Below the pieces are notes generated by a model. That model had not been told where the DNA came from. It worked only from the letters and a program-made list of their open reading frames with translations, and made no database searches. This document shows, piece by piece, positions 3,784 to 11,679 of a DNA stretch of 38,617 bases. The translations under genes were made by a program, and so were the position numbers. The stretch's first letter is position 1, and every line of letters starts with the position of its first letter. Source of the stretch: Archangium sp. (lineage in GTDB: Bacteria; Myxococcota; Myxococcia; Myxococcales; Myxococcaceae); NCBI GenBank assembly GCA_030695565.1, contig JAUYRZ010000108.1, positions 1 through 38,617 of the forward strand. Direction: 5' to 3'.

Positions 3784-3803
3784 GTCGCTCCGCCTCGGCC
3801 AGG
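3784..3803 (+). repeat. Short fragment of the stop/start junction repeat
   Basis: About 20 bases (GTCGCTCCGCCTCGGCCAGG) match the left end of the dispersed repeat seen at 7189-7531, with about two differences. It lies just downstream of the engB stop and reads opposite to the flanking minus-strand genes, unlike the full copies. It is too short to be sure it is a true remnant. Confidence 0.4.
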
Positions 3804-3804
3804 G

Positions 3805-4410
3805 CTAACCGATGATGCCCAGCAGCGTGCGCCACACGTCCTGATGACCGATGTCGTCATGCGACGAGAAGCCGAGCAGCGAGTTGTCGGGCAGCTCGAG
3901 CTTCTGCTGAATCTTCAGCAACTGCGGCTTGCGCGCCGACTTGCTGATGCGATCGAGCTTGGTGGCCACCACGAGAATGCGGGGCGGCTTGTCCTGGAGG
4001 AAGTCGAGCATCTCGAGATCGTCGGGCGTGGGGCCGATCTCACCGTCGATGATGCACACCACCACCTTGAGCGTGTGCCGATTGCTCAGGTACGTGTTGA
4101 TCATGCGATCCCAGATCGCGCGCTCCGACTTGGGCACCTTGGCGAAGCCGTAGCCGGGCAGATCGCACAGGCGAACGGTGCGCTTCTTCGCGCGGTGCTC
4201 GAGGGCGACGTCGAAGAAGTTGAGCGTCTTGGTGCGCCCCGGGGTGTTCGACACGCGCACCAGCTTGCGGCGGTTGGCGAGCGTGTTGATCATCGACGAC
4301 TTGCCGACGTTGGAGCGGCCCACGAAGGCCACTTCGGGGATGTTTTCCCGGGGGTAGTCGTCGAGCTGGGTGGCGGTGGTGACGAACTCTGCTGTGAGGA
4401 CTTTGATCAT
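3805..4410 (-). CDS. engB: Ribosome biogenesis GTPase EngB/YsxC
   Basis: A small TRAFAC GTPase needed for large-subunit ribosome assembly. All G motifs are visible: G1 GRSNVGKSS (31-39), G2 in TPGRTKTLNFF, G3 DLPGYG (83-88), G4 TKLD (150-153, where TKAD is more usual) and G5 around FSS (181-183). Its 201 residues are normal for the family. The ATG at 4410 is directly preceded by a copy of the dispersed junction repeat, which separates it from the upstream cytochrome gene. It has no neighbouring ribosomal genes. Confidence 0.95.
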   Translation of the reverse strand: MIKVLTAEFVTTATQLDDYPRENIPEVAFVGRSNVGKSSMINTLANRRKLVRVSNTPGRTKTLNFFDVALEHRAKKRTVRLCDLPGYGFAKVPKSERAIWDRMINTYLSNRHTLKVVVCIIDGEIGPTPDDLEMLDFLQDKPPRILVVATKLDRISKSARKPQLLKIQQKLELPDNSLLGFSSHDDIGHQDVWRTLLGIIG

Positions 4411-4498
4411 GGAACGGAGACGCCAGCAGCCAAGGGCTGCGCGAGACAGACGGGAGCGCAGCGGACGGCTGGCCGAGTCGAAGTGACCCGGATCATGG
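4405..4498 (-). repeat. Junction repeat between cytochrome c stop and engB start
   Basis: The 82 bases between the cytochrome stop (4493-4495) and the engB ATG are a diverged copy of the unit at 7189-7531, read in the direction of transcription. The core is about 4413-4490. It is bounded by an exact 8-bp direct repeat, GATCATGG at 4405-4412 and at 4491-4498. One repeat holds the engB start codon and the other holds the cytochrome stop codon. The hairpin arms are GCAGCC/GGCTGC with a 3-base loop. The equivalent arms elsewhere are GCAGCG/CGCTGC. A likely pre-insertion state is an ATGA overlap of the two genes. Confidence 0.75.
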
Positions 4499-4996
4499 TG
4501 TTTGGGCGAGCTCCGCGGCCTTGAGCGGTGGCATCACCTGCGCCTTGCGCTTTTGCCGCTCGATCGTCCAGTGATCGATCGCCTTGAGCTTGGCGGCGAA
4601 GTCGAAAGGTTTGAGTGAGGGGCTGGCGGCGTCGTGGCAGGCCCGGCAGGACTTCTCTGCGGGGTCGACCAGGCCGACCAGGCGCGCCAGCTCAGGGTCC
4701 TTCATCACGTAGTTGGCCGAATAGAACTGGCCCCCGCCGTGGCAGCTCTCACAGGCCACGTGGGCGGCCTTCTGATCGGTCTGGTTGGGAGAGTGGCACG
4801 ACAGGCAGCGCACGTCCTTCTGCTGCTGCGGGGAGAGCACGTCGCGGGCGCGCGCGTGGCCGGTCGCCTGCCAGGCCGCGTACGCGTCGGGGTGGCAGGC
4901 CTGGCAGCTCTCGGAGCCGAGGAAGTCGTGGGCCCACACAGCCACGCCCCCACATGCGATCGACAGCGCGAGAACTCGAGAAAGCAGCGGACGCAT
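4493..4996 (-). CDS. Periplasmic tetraheme cytochrome c
   Basis: A secreted protein of 167 residues with a signal peptide (MRPLLSRVLALSIACGGVAVWA). It has four CxxCH haem c motifs: CQACH (31-35), CLSCH (64-68), CESCH (82-86) and CRACH (117-121). The spacing and the 'SCQACHPDAYAAWQATGHA' opening resemble the cytochrome c554/multihaem nitrite-reductase-associated electron carrier families. It probably carries electrons in the periplasm. The partner cannot be named because no reductase or oxidase lies nearby. It is divergent from the gene at 5026 with only 29 bp between the start codons. Confidence 0.85.
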   Translation of the reverse strand: MRPLLSRVLALSIACGGVAVWAHDFLGSESCQACHPDAYAAWQATGHARARDVLSPQQQKDVRCLSCHSPNQTDQKAAHVACESCHGGGQFYSANYVMKDPELARLVGLVDPAEKSCRACHDAASPSLKPFDFAAKLKAIDHWTIERQKRKAQVMPPLKAAELAQTP

Positions 4997-5025
4997 CGGC
5001 AGTTGCGTAGCATCGGTCTTCCTCT

Positions 5026-5484
5026 ATGTCGCGTCTCGCCTTCCTGCTCACCCTGGCGCCCCTGCTGGCCTTCGCCAAGCCCTGGCAGGGCATCGTTCCG
5101 GGCGGAGGCTCCAGTGAACTCGATGTGGTCGGCAAGTTCGGTGAACCGACCCGGCGGGTCTCGGCGCGCGGGCAGCTGGTGCTGGTCTTCTCCGGGGTGC
5201 AGGCCATCAAGGGCACGGTGCAGGCGCAGTTCAAGTGCGACCCCGGCACCAAAGAGGTGCAGCGCATCGACGTCTATCCAGAGCCGGTGATCGACCTGTC
5301 GGCCATCGAGAAGAGCTACGGCCGCTCGTGCCAGGCCACCGGGGGCGAAGAGCCCTGCTACTGGCGCAAGGAGACCGCGCAGAAGCACCCCTACTTCCTC
5401 TACTCGAAGCTCGGCCTGGCCATCTTCTTCAAGGACGACGACACGACGGTGCTCTCGTTCGCCTTCTTGCCGCCTCAAGCCTGA
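5026..5484 (+). CDS. Secreted protein of unknown function
   Basis: The protein has 152 residues and a clear signal peptide (MSRLAFLLTLAPLLAFA). The mature part is beta-rich with three Cys (CDPG, SCQATG, EEPCYW) and the segment 'GKFGEPTRR', which recalls small outer-membrane-assembly or lipoprotein folds of the SmpA/BamE kind. That resemblance is weak. Its stop overlaps the coaE start by one base (TGATG), so the two are translationally coupled. Confidence 0.75.
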   Translation: MSRLAFLLTLAPLLAFAKPWQGIVPGGGSSELDVVGKFGEPTRRVSARGQLVLVFSGVQAIKGTVQAQFKCDPGTKEVQRIDVYPEPVIDLSAIEKSYGRSCQATGGEEPCYWRKETAQKHPYFLYSKLGLAIFFKDDDTTVLSFAFLPPQA

Positions 5485-6074
5485 TGCGGCTCTACGGGCT
5501 CACCGGGGGCATCGCTTCGGGCAAGTCGACCGTGTCGGCCTTCTTTCGCGAGGCCGGCATTCCGGTGATCGACGCCGACGCGCTCGCCCGCGAAGTGGTG
5601 GAGCCGGGCCAGCCCGCGCTCGCGGAGATCTCCGCGCGTTTTCCCGGCACCCTCACGGCTGAGGGCACGCTCGATCGCGCGAAGCTGGGTGCGTTGATCT
5701 TCCAGGATCCCGCGGAGCGCGCGGCCCTGGGCGCCATCACCCACCCGCGCATTCAGGCCCTCGCCCTGGAGCGCACCACCGCGCTCGCCGCCACCGGCGC
5801 AACGGCGGCGATCTACGACGCGCCGCTGCTGATCGAGAACAAGCTCTCCGAGGCCATGAACGGCGTCATCCTGGTGACCTGCCCTCCCGAGGTGCAGCTC
5901 GCCCGCTTGATGGCCCGAAACGCGCTCACCGAAGCGCAGGCCCGCCAGCGCATCGACTCACAGATGTCACTGGAGCAGAAGCGGCCGTTCGCCACCTGGC
6001 TCATCGACAATGGGGGCTCGCTGGAGGCCACCCGAGCGCAGGTGAAAAAGGTGATCGCCGGTTGGAAAGAGTAG
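5484..6074 (+). CDS. coaE: Dephospho-CoA kinase
   Basis: It phosphorylates the 3'-OH of dephospho-CoA, the last step of CoA synthesis. The P-loop GGIASGKS is at residues 8-15. The family motif VIDADALAREVVEPG follows at 28-42, and 'THPRI' and 'YDAPLLIENK' complete the signature. Its 196 residues are normal. The ATG at 5484 gives the P-loop its usual position. A longer open frame upstream in the same phase overlaps the preceding gene and is not used. The SDR gene follows after 9 bp. Confidence 0.95.
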   Translation: MRLYGLTGGIASGKSTVSAFFREAGIPVIDADALAREVVEPGQPALAEISARFPGTLTAEGTLDRAKLGALIFQDPAERAALGAITHPRIQALALERTTALAATGATAAIYDAPLLIENKLSEAMNGVILVTCPPEVQLARLMARNALTEAQARQRIDSQMSLEQKRPFATWLIDNGGSLEATRAQVKKVIAGWKE

Positions 6075-6083
6075 GTTCACGCG

Positions 6084-7193
6084 GTGCTCACCGCCTTCGT
6101 CACCGGCTACCCCGGCTTCATCGGCAAGCGGCTGGTCAAATACCTCGCGAAAGAGAACCCCGACGGGCGCATCACGCTGCTCGTGCAGCCGAAGTTCCTC
6201 AAAGAGGCGCAAGGCTACGCGGCGGCCCTCGAGGGCGCGAAGGTCGACGTCATCTCGGGCGACATCGTCGACATGCACCTGGGGCTGGCGGGCCCGGAGT
6301 ACCAACGGCTGGTCGACGAGACGACGCACATCTTCCACCTCGCGGCGGTCAGCTACCTGGGCATGCCCCACGACGTCGCGCGCAAGGTGAACGTCGAAGG
6401 CACCCGCGGCGTGCTCGAGCTGGCGCGCGAGTGCAGCAAGCTCGAACGGTTCGTGCACTACAGCACCACCTACGTCTCCGGCGATCGGGTGGGGGTGGTG
6501 GCGGAAGACGAGCTCGAGCAGGGCCAGGCCTTCCGCAACGCGTACGAAGAGACCAAGTACGAAGCCGAGCGCCTGGTGCGCCGCGCGATGAAACACCTGC
6601 CGATCACCATCATCCGGCCCTCCACCGTGGTGGGCGACTCGGAGACGGGTGAGATCGATCGCTTCGAGGGCCCCTACTACCTCGGCATGTTGCTGGTGCT
6701 CTCGCCGCTGGTGCTGCCGCTGCCGCTTCCCGGTAACGGGGTCGCGCCGCTCAACGTGGTGCCCGTCGACTTCGTGGTCGAGGCGACGTGGGTGCTGGCC
6801 CAGAAATCCGAGGCGATCGGCAAGACCGTACACCTGGTCGACCCGAACCCGATGAGCGCCCGCCGTGTCTACGAACTCATCGCGGAACGCGCGAACAAGA
6901 AGCTGCCCCGCTTCAGCCTCTCGGCGCGCGCAGCCGACCTGTTCTTGCGCATTCCCGGCGTGGAGAAGCTCGCCCGCCCCCAACGCGCGGCGATTCAGTA
7001 CGTGAATCACCTGGTGCTCTACAACTGCCACACCGCGCTCGAGCTGCTCGACGGCACTGGCGTGCGCTGCCCGCCTCTCTCCACCTATCTCGACAAGCTG
7101 ATCGACTTCGCGATGCTCAGCTGGAAAGCGCGGCAAGACGGCGCCGCAGCCGAAGAACTCGATGATCCCCTCGATCGACCTGCACGCTCATGA
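6084..7193 (+). CDS. Extended SDR: NAD(P)-dependent epimerase/acyl-thioester reductase-like
   Basis: An extended short-chain dehydrogenase of 369 residues. It has a Rossmann motif TGYPGFIG (7-14), 'HLAAVSYLG', and the catalytic pair Y154/K158 (YEETK) after a Ser-rich strand (HYSTTYVSGD). The layout 'FVTGYPGFIGKRLVKYL...ITLLVQ' with 'KVNVEGTRGVLELA' and 'IRPSTVVGDSETG' fits both NAD-epimerases and the reductase domain of fatty acyl-CoA reductases. The start is GTG at 6084. Two hotdog dehydratase genes follow, so a role in fatty-acyl or polyketide-type metabolism is a reasonable inference. Its stop codon TGA (7191-7193) lies inside the first repeat unit. Confidence 0.85.
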   Translation: MLTAFVTGYPGFIGKRLVKYLAKENPDGRITLLVQPKFLKEAQGYAAALEGAKVDVISGDIVDMHLGLAGPEYQRLVDETTHIFHLAAVSYLGMPHDVARKVNVEGTRGVLELARECSKLERFVHYSTTYVSGDRVGVVAEDELEQGQAFRNAYEETKYEAERLVRRAMKHLPITIIRPSTVVGDSETGEIDRFEGPYYLGMLLVLSPLVLPLPLPGNGVAPLNVVPVDFVVEATWVLAQKSEAIGKTVHLVDPNPMSARRVYELIAERANKKLPRFSLSARAADLFLRIPGVEKLARPQRAAIQYVNHLVLYNCHTALELLDGTGVRCPPLSTYLDKLIDFAMLSWKARQDGAAAEELDDPLDRPARS

Positions 7194-7531
7194 CTCTGAT
7201 TTCTTGGTCGTTCCGCCTCGGCCAGCTGTCCACTTCGTTCCCATCTGTCTCGCGCAGCGTTCCGCTGCTGGCGGCTCCACTCCATGACTCTGGTCGTTCC
7301 GCCTCGGCCAGCTGTCCGCTTCGCTCCCATCTGTCTCGCGCAGCGTTCCGCTGCTGGCGGCTCACTCCATGACTCTGGTCGTTCCGCCTCGGCCAGCTGT
7401 CCGCTTCGCTCCCATCTGTCTCGCGCAGCGTTCCGCTGCTGGCGGCTCCACTCCATGACTCTGGTCGTTCCGCCTCGGCCAGCTGTCCGCTTCGCTCCCA
7501 TCTGTCCGTTCCGCTGCTGGCGGCTCCACTC
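7189..7531 (+). repeat. Four-unit tandem array of the stop/start junction repeat
   Basis: Four contiguous units start with CATGACT at 7189, 7283, 7368 and 7454, with lengths of about 94, 85, 86 and 78 bp. A further CATGACT at 7532 is the MaoC gene start. Unit 1 has 8 extra bases (ATTTCTTG) after CTCTG. Unit 4 lacks 8 bases (TCGCGCAG), which removes one arm of the hairpin GCAGCG-TTC-CGCTGC present in units 1-3. The array exactly fills the space between the SDR stop (7191-7193) and the MaoC ATG (7533). No spacers separate the units, so it is not CRISPR. Single copies occur at 4405-4498 and 9753-9840. Confidence 0.9.
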
Positions 7532-7532
7532 C

Positions 7533-7925
7533 ATGACTAAGACCTACGCTGTCGGTGACACCTTCACGCTCGTGCGTGCCTGCGACCCCTATCGCCCGAT
7601 TTATTACGCGGCCGCTTCGGGCGACTTCAACCCCATCCACATCGACCCCGCGGTGGGCCAGGAAGCAGGCCTGGGCGGCGCGATCCTCCAGGGCTTGTGC
7701 ACCCTGGGCTGGGCGGTCGACGCGTTCATCGGCTACCTCGGCGATCCAGGCCGGGTCAGCGGCGTGAACGTACGCTTCAGCCGGCCCGTGGCGATCAACG
7801 ACACGGTGACCTTCACCGGCACGGTGATCTCCATCGAGAACGGCACGCTGGTCGCCGAACTCGAAGCGGTCAACCAACGCGACGAGACCGTGCTCAAGGG
7901 CGCCACCGTCGAAGGGCGGGTCTGA
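7533..7925 (+). CDS. MaoC-like hotdog dehydratase (HadB-like)
   Basis: A single hotdog domain of 130 residues. The hydratase-2 motif is intact: YYAAASGDFNPIHIDP, with the catalytic Asp at 31 and His at 36. Such proteins hydrate or dehydrate (3R)-hydroxyacyl thioesters. The start at 7533 is chosen because the family begins just ahead of 'Y.VGD.F'. In-frame ATGs inside the repeat array (for example 7284) would add 83 residues of translated repeat and are not credible. A FAS1-type hotdog gene follows after 2 bp, recalling the mycobacterial HadA-HadB heterodimer, in which only HadB carries the catalytic motif. Confidence 0.9.
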   Translation: MTKTYAVGDTFTLVRACDPYRPIYYAAASGDFNPIHIDPAVGQEAGLGGAILQGLCTLGWAVDAFIGYLGDPGRVSGVNVRFSRPVAINDTVTFTGTVISIENGTLVAELEAVNQRDETVLKGATVEGRV

Positions 7926-7927
7926 TC

Positions 7928-8410
7928 GTGGCTCTCGACAAGAGGTTCATCGGCCGCGAGTACGGGCCGTTCTTCTACGAAGCGGGCCTCGAGAAGATGC
8001 GCGAGTTCGCTTACGCGGTGGGCGGCTCCATCCCCTCCACCGGCTATTCGGCGAAAGGTGCGCCCGAGCGCCTGCACCCCGTGCTCCACGATGAAGTGGC
8101 CGCCAAGGCCTCGGCCTGGGGTTCGGTGATCGCCCTGCCCACCTTCGCGGTCACCTTCGCCATCGCGCCCTTCGGCCGGGCCTGCAGCGATCCCGAGCTC
8201 GCGCTCAACCTGCTGCGGCTGGTGCACGGCGAGCAGTCGTTCGAGTTCTTCGAGGTGGTGCGTTCGGGCGACAAGCTCACCACCAGCGGGAAGATCACCG
8301 ACATCCTCACCAAACGAAGCCTCGACTTCCTCACGGTGACCACCGAGACCACGAACCAGCACGGCAAGCTGGTGGTGCGCGCGAAGTGGACCGCGATCAT
8401 CCGCGGCTGA
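7928..8410 (+). CDS. FAS1-like dehydratase domain protein (HadA-like)
   Basis: A hotdog protein of 160 residues starting at GTG 7928, two bases after the MaoC-like stop. It begins DKRFIGREYGPFFYEAGLEK and contains 'HPVLHDEVAAKASAWG', 'LRLVHGEQSFEFFEVVRSGD' and 'TTETTNQHGKLVV'. This is the pattern of the N-terminal MaoC dehydratase (FAS1_DH_region/HadA) family. It lacks the Asp/His motif of its neighbour, so it probably serves as the non-catalytic, substrate-tunnel partner. Its 3' end overlaps the convergent TPR gene by 14 bp. Confidence 0.85.
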   Translation: MALDKRFIGREYGPFFYEAGLEKMREFAYAVGGSIPSTGYSAKGAPERLHPVLHDEVAAKASAWGSVIALPTFAVTFAIAPFGRACSDPELALNLLRLVHGEQSFEFFEVVRSGDKLTTSGKITDILTKRSLDFLTVTTETTNQHGKLVVRAKWTAIIRG

Positions 8411-9752
8411 TCACGCCCTCTTCCACCAGCTGGGCGAGAATGCGGGCGGTGTCGATGCGCGACATGCCCGAGACCGAAAAGAGATCGTCGAAGCTGACCG
8501 TGCCGTCGATCTGCGCCAGCACGAAACCGGCCCGGTGATCGAGGTTGAGCCAGATGATCTCGTCGTCCTTGAGCAGCACCCGGGGGATCGTGTCGGGTTT
8601 GCCCAGCTTCGACTCGAACATGGCCAGCAGCGTCTTTTCGCTGCGCTCGCGCATGAGCAGCACTTCGGGGTCATCGGGCGCGATCTCCTGCGCCTTGACG
8701 ATCAGCTCCATGGCGCCGCTGTGATCGTCGAGATCGAGCAGGTCACGCGCGCCTCGAAGGATCGTGCGGATCTCTTCTTTGCGTGACGGGGGAGCAGGCG
8801 ACGCCTTCGAGTCGGCCGAGATGAGATCGAGCGCGCGATCACGCCCCACCACCGCCTCGAGCTTGATGCCGGGGTTGCTGCGCTGATCCCAGGCCGACTC
8901 CGCGCGCGGCGCCAATGACGGTGACGGGCGCGGCACCGGCGTGAACTCTTCTTCGACGGTGCGCTGTTCCTGCGGCGGTGGGCTGCTGCTCGCCCACGCC
9001 CACGCCTGGCCCATCGGCTCGGGCCGCACCGGCGCGGGCGCAGCGGCAGGCAAACTGGCAAACAACGGCGGCGTCGAAGGCGAAGGCGTGGGCAACGCCC
9101 CGAAGGTGACCGTCATGGGCGCCGGCTCAGCGGGGCCGGAACCGAACAGCGGGGGCGTCGACGACGGCGGGGCGTCAGGGCCGGCATCCCCCCCCAGCTC
9201 GATGGTTTTGGGCGCGACGGGCACCTCTTCATCGTCGGGGCCAAAGAGCTGCAGCGTGGTGCGGGGCGCTGCGCCCTTCGCGGCGGGGAACAACAGCGTC
9301 GACTTCGGTACGGGCGAGTTGTTGCCCAGCACCACGTTGGAGGACGACGAGGCGGTGTACGGCCTGGGATCTTCGCCGCTCGACGCAGGCATCGGCTGCG
9401 GCACCGGCGTGGCTGCGCCCGTCAAGCGGCCCCAGTCACCCTCGAGGTCGGCTTCGGGGAGCGGCTGGGTCGAAGGGCCCCACTCGACCTGCGTGCGGCG
9501 GTCGGGGCGCTCGAAGGGGTTGGTGCCGATCGAGCTGGCGATCGACGGCGGCGAGGGCGTCTTCGAGGACGCAGCGGGAGGTGCGGTGTCTTCGCCCGGC
9601 GCGGGTGCACCGGCGAGCAACTGGGTTGCTTTCTGATTGCCCGGGTCGAGCTTGAGCGCTCGCTCGAACAACTTCCGGGCGCCTTCGCGATCACCTGACA
9701 GCTTGAGCCAGATTCCCGCTTCGACGAGCTGTGACGCGCGATCGCTGCTCAT
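8397..9752 (-). CDS. TPR protein with Pro-rich linker and C-terminal helical domain
   Basis: A protein of 451 residues in three parts. An N-terminal TPR (about 1-45, 'AGIWLKLSGDREGARKLFERALKLDP') is followed by a low-complexity Pro/Ser/Ala linker (about 50-310). A second TPR-like region ('DLLDLDDHSGAMELIVKAQEIAPDDPEVLLM') leads to a C-terminal module with 'FVLAQIDGTVSFDDLFSVSGMSRIDTARILAQLVEEGVI', which looks like a winged-helix-like segment known from myxobacterial TPR/regulatory proteins. There is no signal peptide. It follows the Hsp70 gene across an 88-bp repeat copy and may act with that chaperone. The function is not known. Confidence 0.8.
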   Translation of the reverse strand: MSSDRASQLVEAGIWLKLSGDREGARKLFERALKLDPGNQKATQLLAGAPAPGEDTAPPAASSKTPSPPSIASSIGTNPFERPDRRTQVEWGPSTQPLPEADLEGDWGRLTGAATPVPQPMPASSGEDPRPYTASSSSNVVLGNNSPVPKSTLLFPAAKGAAPRTTLQLFGPDDEEVPVAPKTIELGGDAGPDAPPSSTPPLFGSGPAEPAPMTVTFGALPTPSPSTPPLFASLPAAAPAPVRPEPMGQAWAWASSSPPPQEQRTVEEEFTPVPRPSPSLAPRAESAWDQRSNPGIKLEAVVGRDRALDLISADSKASPAPPSRKEEIRTILRGARDLLDLDDHSGAMELIVKAQEIAPDDPEVLLMRERSEKTLLAMFESKLGKPDTIPRVLLKDDEIIWLNLDHRAGFVLAQIDGTVSFDDLFSVSGMSRIDTARILAQLVEEGVISRG

Positions 9753-9840
9753 GAGTGGACCCGGTAGCAGCGGAACGCTGCGCGAGACAGACGGGAGCGA
9801 AGCGGACGTCTGGCCGAGGTGGAGCGACCCAGAAACATAG
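9753..9840 (-). repeat. Junction repeat between Hsp70 stop and TPR gene start
   Basis: All 88 bases between the Hsp70 stop (9841) and the ATG at 9752 are one copy of the repeat, read with transcription. By eye it differs from array units at about ten positions. The hairpin GCAGCG-TTC-CGCTGC is intact (plus-strand view near 9767-9781). The left boundary reads CTATGTTTCTGGG and the right boundary CACTCATGAGC. ATG is therefore present at both edges, but there is no exact longer direct repeat as at the other two loci. Confidence 0.8.

Positions 9841-11679
<1,839 letters not shown>

Follow-up and report, generated by a model that had tools for sequence, protein, structure and literature searches.

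The question raised by this locus is how a tandem repeat came to fill exactly the junction between the stop codon of one gene and the start codon of the next, and how translation might proceed across it. It lies in a window of 38,617 nt, the contig JAUYRZ010000108.1 of Archangium sp. The upstream gene (6084-7193, plus strand) encodes an NAD_binding_4/SDR-type protein (Pfam PF07993, E=1.5e-48), and the downstream gene (7533-7925, plus strand) encodes a MaoC-like dehydratase (PF01575, E=7.8e-21), the start of which was assigned from an alignment of homologues. Counted from ATG to ATG, four units on the plus strand fill the interval 7190-7532: unit 1 at 7190-7283 (94 nt), unit 2 at 7284-7368 (85 nt), unit 3 at 7369-7454 (86 nt, the canonical length), and unit 4 at 7455-7532 (78 nt). 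Tandem Repeats Finder (TRF) reports a period of 86 over 7205-7538, with 4.0 copies and 95% matches. An earlier sequence-only reading had described these end-to-end units and a CATGACT at each junction, and both descriptions stand; CATGACT is the duplicated target followed by the first bases of the element. The same reading correctly recorded an 8-nt gain in unit 1 (after ATGACTCTG, visible in the sequence and by TRF) and an 8-nt loss in unit 4, but overlooked a 1-nt loss in the sequence close to the end of unit 2.

The key feature of the array, absent from that reading, is its reading-frame continuity. The ATG of unit 1 at 7190 overlaps the TGA of the upstream gene (7191-7193). The changes in units 1 and 2 (+8 and -1) compensate for each other, so that the ORF starting at 7190 stays open through both units for 60 codons (7190-7372, plus strand, 60 aa) and stops at the TGA 7370-7372, in a 4-nt overlap with the ATG at 7369. 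Unit 3 then provides a mini-ORF of 29 codons (7369-7458, plus strand, 29 aa), which encodes MTLVVPPRPAVRFAPICLAQRSAAGGSTP and ends at the TGA 7456-7458, again in a 4-nt overlap with the ATG at 7455. Unit 4, with its 8-nt loss, is in frame with the MaoC gene, and its frame reads through into it (7455-7925, plus strand) across the native start at 7533. The chain of coupled ORFs leading into MaoC is thus unbroken despite indels of +8, -1, and -8 nt.

Two single copies occur in the window on the minus strand, each of 86 nt from ATG to ATG: one (4411-4496) separates the stop of a short CxxCH (cytochrome-like) gene from the start codon of a YihA-type GTPase gene, the other (9753-9838) a DnaK-type gene from the start of a TPR-like gene. 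Both had been noticed earlier (4405-4498 and 9753-9840) and are confirmed as homologous copies. The repeat is far beyond chance: this genome and two congeners contain the same sequence at dozens of sites.

Genomic distribution and placement

In the genome of the window the unit has about 40 matches, and G003 and G004, two further members of the genus, have many as well. Among 96 genomes of the GTDB family, the element is found in three, all of one genus, and a fourth has a marginal match of 34 bases. A 24-base core, searched against 84,980 species genomes in a scan that may leave out records of the window's own genome, matched only Archangium sp. C12_metabat.bin.17_sub and Myxococcales bacterium Bin_62_4, both metagenome-assembled. 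The expectation of finding the element across complete Myxococcota genomes is not borne out, as it was found only in one genus. We found no description of such an element in the open-access literature, and its pattern is absent from viral contigs, which led us to reject a phage or virus origin.

Scoring the best candidates per genome, we collected 170 loci that represent 129 distinct arrays in the three genomes, with genes called by a home-made codon-model gene finder; the source genomes are draft assemblies, and several contigs stop within arrays. Ninety-five arrays carry a type-A score, type A being the form found in the window. Of these, 72 terminate precisely at a start codon on the same strand, 13 lie elsewhere, and contig ends truncate the remaining 10, so that 72 of the 85 determinable type-A arrays (85%) directly adjoin an ATG or GTG start and approximately 15% lie away from sense starts; inclusion of weaker matches raises the number at starts to 81. 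Among 52 arrays with a left start codon in register, 18 occupy 4-nt stop/start overlaps, 17 precede genes with a neighbour on the opposite strand, and the remainder have other same-strand spacings. The proposal of an undescribed element placed exactly at stop/start junctions is thus upheld as regards the start codon, whereas the stop codon matters only where stop and start overlap.

Insertion sites tend to have a C preceding the start codon and an A following it; base +4 is A in 30 of 34 non-overlapping sites compared with 42% of ordinary ATG starts. Outside genes, RTGA coincides with a start codon in 189 of 1194 occurrences (16%) and CCRTGA in 55 of 155 (36%). Random placement, suggested earlier as the outcome that would speak against junction specificity, is not what is seen: 72 of 85 arrays are at starts, against a start share of 16-36% at comparable sites outside genes. 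Because this share is low, a target motif combined with purging of insertions within genes does not explain the preference for starts. A few copies are inverted at start codons (L060, L063, L068, and L102), and several of these sites are the palindrome CATG, with an ATG on both strands. One copy, L114:2171-2239, lies at a stop codon and is flanked on either side by TAA instead of RTG, which suggests that triplets other than start codons can also be duplicated.

Empty sites, target duplication, and mobility

Comparison of orthologous loci identified empty sites for all three insertions in the window. At the 4410 start, stop and start simply overlap as ATGA in G004 and G005, which lack the element there; at the 9752 start, the empty sites read TGAcccATGAGC in G003 and TGAcgcATGAGC in G005, and further genomes are also empty; at the 7533 start, the element is absent from G003, G004, and G005. 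Given these empty sites, the state before the array was zero units rather than the single unit assumed in the sequence-only reading. Four further loci have empty partners, one of them a GTGA-element-GTGA site with a single GTGA in the G003 and G004 orthologues. At most of the seven loci examined, relatives show an empty site with one ATGA or GTGA where the filled site has two, which implies that the start codon is duplicated upon insertion. Similarly, of five genes with a right-hand GTG start, four carry a left-hand GTG as well (Fisher p=0.008). The GTGA-GTGA copies with GTGA empty sites disfavour an ATGA carried by the element itself, and a six-base duplication (ATGACT, ATGATC), hinted at by two loci of the window, is not seen in other copies.

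With 129 distinct arrays scattered over non-orthologous sites, and orthologous positions that are empty in relatives, the repeat shows a MITE-type dispersal and is a dispersed, structured, non-autonomous mobile element. Its ends, WTCTGGG... and ...CGCTCC, are not inverted repeats of each other in the alignment, and a limited search found no parent transposon. Mobilization by a Y1/RAYT transposase was rejected, as the Y1 family is missing from G000 and G004 and the only Y1 gene of G003 has no adjacent element copies; IS110 was rejected too, with none in G000, G003, or G004. The carrier genomes have several reverse transcriptases, retron-like and group II-like as judged by eye without a family search, and those fetched (L284-L295) have no element copies beside them. 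G005 has neither the element nor reverse transcriptases.

A second form, type B, has about 80% identity to type A and the same architecture. This form, too, has a precise landmark: its copies occupy the loops of CCCTCTCC...GGGGAGAGGG hairpins or directly follow terminators. In a search of nine genomes it was found only in the three type-A carriers, and its copies are near-identical across the three species (L266, L268, L271, L274, L277, L280, and L283 in G003; L075-L079 and L053 in G000). Some type-A units hold another unit at one fixed internal point, the insert being 87 nt (L111, L118, L152, L193, and L202) or 84 nt (L197, L216, and L225), so that the frame is kept. Each kind of composite recurs at unrelated genes, and the composites therefore seem to move as units. 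L099, L062, and L224 have lost internal sequence or duplicated 38 nt between the CGCTCC repeats of the unit, a pattern consistent with slippage.

Reading frame and proposed translational coupling

From the left RTG the element reads ATG ATC TGG GTC GCT CCG ... GCT CCA TGA, with the TGA supplied by the right-hand ATGA. Given 86 nt between the two RTG copies, the old start thus becomes the first codon of a mini-ORF, roughly 29 codons long, with a TGA that shares bases with the ATG of the gene (ATGA). The nearest left start forms such a 4-nt overlap with the gene in 63 of 77 arrays. Where the RTG spacing is 86, all 39 of 39 arrays are open to the gene start, in frame with the +1 position of the TGA; the consensus itself accounts for part of this openness, and with this G+C content stops are scarce in every frame. 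At other spacings, one open frame to that TGA is kept in 21 of 34 arrays, as against 2 and 2 for the shifted frames, and 12 of 17 distinct non-chained lengths equal 2 mod 3 (p=0.002), with the reservation that these frame statistics are partly non-independent, nested composites sharing descent. Within arrays at starts, junctions of period 86 keep RTGA (12/12) and those of period 87, which lack it, are fused in frame (6/6), a correlation that could in part reflect two forms of the element end. The frame is broken more often where the upstream gene lies on the other strand.

An SD-like sequence precedes the own start of only one of 81 genes with the element, compared with 36% of controls; such a gene would thus need coupling, with ribosomes arriving from the mini-ORF. 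Termination-reinitiation coupling occurs at ATGA overlaps (PMC6728339) and is almost lost when the gap is approximately 20 nt (PMC10666635). An untranslated insert as long as this element would therefore be predicted to uncouple the genes, an argument central to the mechanism proposed below. The element ORF ends in the same operon-coupling 4-nt overlap (PMC6728339, PMC10666635), with the difference that the overlap here is recreated by a mobile repeat.

Proposed mechanism and competing explanations

We consider the best reading, and a probable one, to be a mobile element that inserts at start codons and preserves translational coupling between stop and start. It joins the observed location, target duplication, mobility, frame continuity, hairpin covariation, and restriction to one genus. 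The element, of about 83 nt plus the duplicated target, would insert in sense orientation at start codons in the context (C)C-RTGA, leaving RTG(A) on each side. The left copy of the start codon would still have its former ribosome-binding context, or the preceding stop where operon genes overlap, and would now open the mini-ORF running through the element. Ribosomes would cross the element by translating this predicted mini-ORF and restart on the gene by termination-reinitiation, and selection would act against loss of frame. Every insertion would recreate the target, so that tandem arrays could arise, their units chained by ATGA overlaps or fused in frame. Somewhat more tentatively, we suggest as a possibility that the insertion machinery specifically recognises start codons, perhaps by way of RNA, of the mRNA under translation, or of locally open DNA, and that the length and frame of the element evolved to regenerate coupling, rendering it nearly invisible to the host.

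An ordinary MITE- or REP-like repeat with a short CCRTGA target, whose genic insertions are purged and whose insertions at starts are tolerated, would involve neither start recognition nor frame selection. The CC-RTGA motif with its target duplication agrees with this explanation, as do the two hairpins, a property of REP-like repeats, and the sister type B family in intergenic hairpins away from starts. We nevertheless regard it as unlikely, since outside genes non-start sites outnumber start sites (1005 versus 189 for RTGA, 100 versus 55 for CCRTGA) and almost no type-A copies are found there, and since the frame is kept at altered lengths. The resemblance to REP/REPIN sequences mobilized by RAYT (Y1), which carry GTAG and CGTC tags, extends to a short, intergenic, hairpin-forming, multicopy, and non-autonomous nature (PMC3733652). 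In contrast to them, the myxobacterial element has a duplicated RTG(A), start-codon placement, head-to-tail arrays, and no Y1 in two of three hosts. As to tags, its consensus has no GTAG and has a CGTC that lies within hairpin 1. MITEs of DDE transposons are likewise short and non-autonomous, with target duplication and nested and tandem copies, whereas the present element has no visible terminal inverted repeats and no parent transposase was found; start-codon specificity of MITEs was not found in a review (PMC10969869). Rickettsia palindromic elements (RPEs), discussed in the same review, are short palindromic mobile repeats that are compatible with the reading frame and encode peptides. RPEs, which differ in sequence and host, enter genes as in-frame protein additions, whereas the copies described here sit at gene starts, not within genes, and add a separate upstream mini-ORF.

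Compensatory changes occur in 8 of the 12 pairs of the two hairpins, and none of 500 shuffles reaches the observed values, a constraint that could act on RNA or on single-stranded DNA. Together with the fixed position before the start codon, this covariation might point to a cis-regulatory RNA leader, attenuator or riboswitch-like, retained upstream of genes for regulation. Such a leader is very improbable, as close relatives differ in its presence at orthologous loci, the neighbouring genes examined are unrelated, and only three genomes of the family carry it; Rfam covariance models gave one chance-level match elsewhere in 3800-10400 and none to the element, so a known structured RNA family was rejected. 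Even less credible is a family of short genes under selection for the encoded peptide (MIWVAPPRPDVRFAPVCLAQRSAATGSAP). Most copies do have an ORF with a start and a stop, yet variability is lowest at codon position 3 (entropy 0.32 versus 0.41 and 0.45), and peptide-coding selection was rejected on this ground; moreover, the minus-strand copy at 9753-9838 and the first ORF of the array use other frames while keeping the coupling, and Pfam gives no convincing match.

Returning to the proposed start-codon-inserting element, its sequence features are those of a repeat that appears to enter the control points of genes without breaking translation. Mobile repeats are usually viewed as surviving by landing in unused DNA; this one strikes where a gene is most sensitive, and a translatable bridge seems to be what lets it survive. 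Its filled and empty orthologous sites constitute natural experiments on termination-reinitiation, and its placement raises the question of what can recognise a start codon in DNA.
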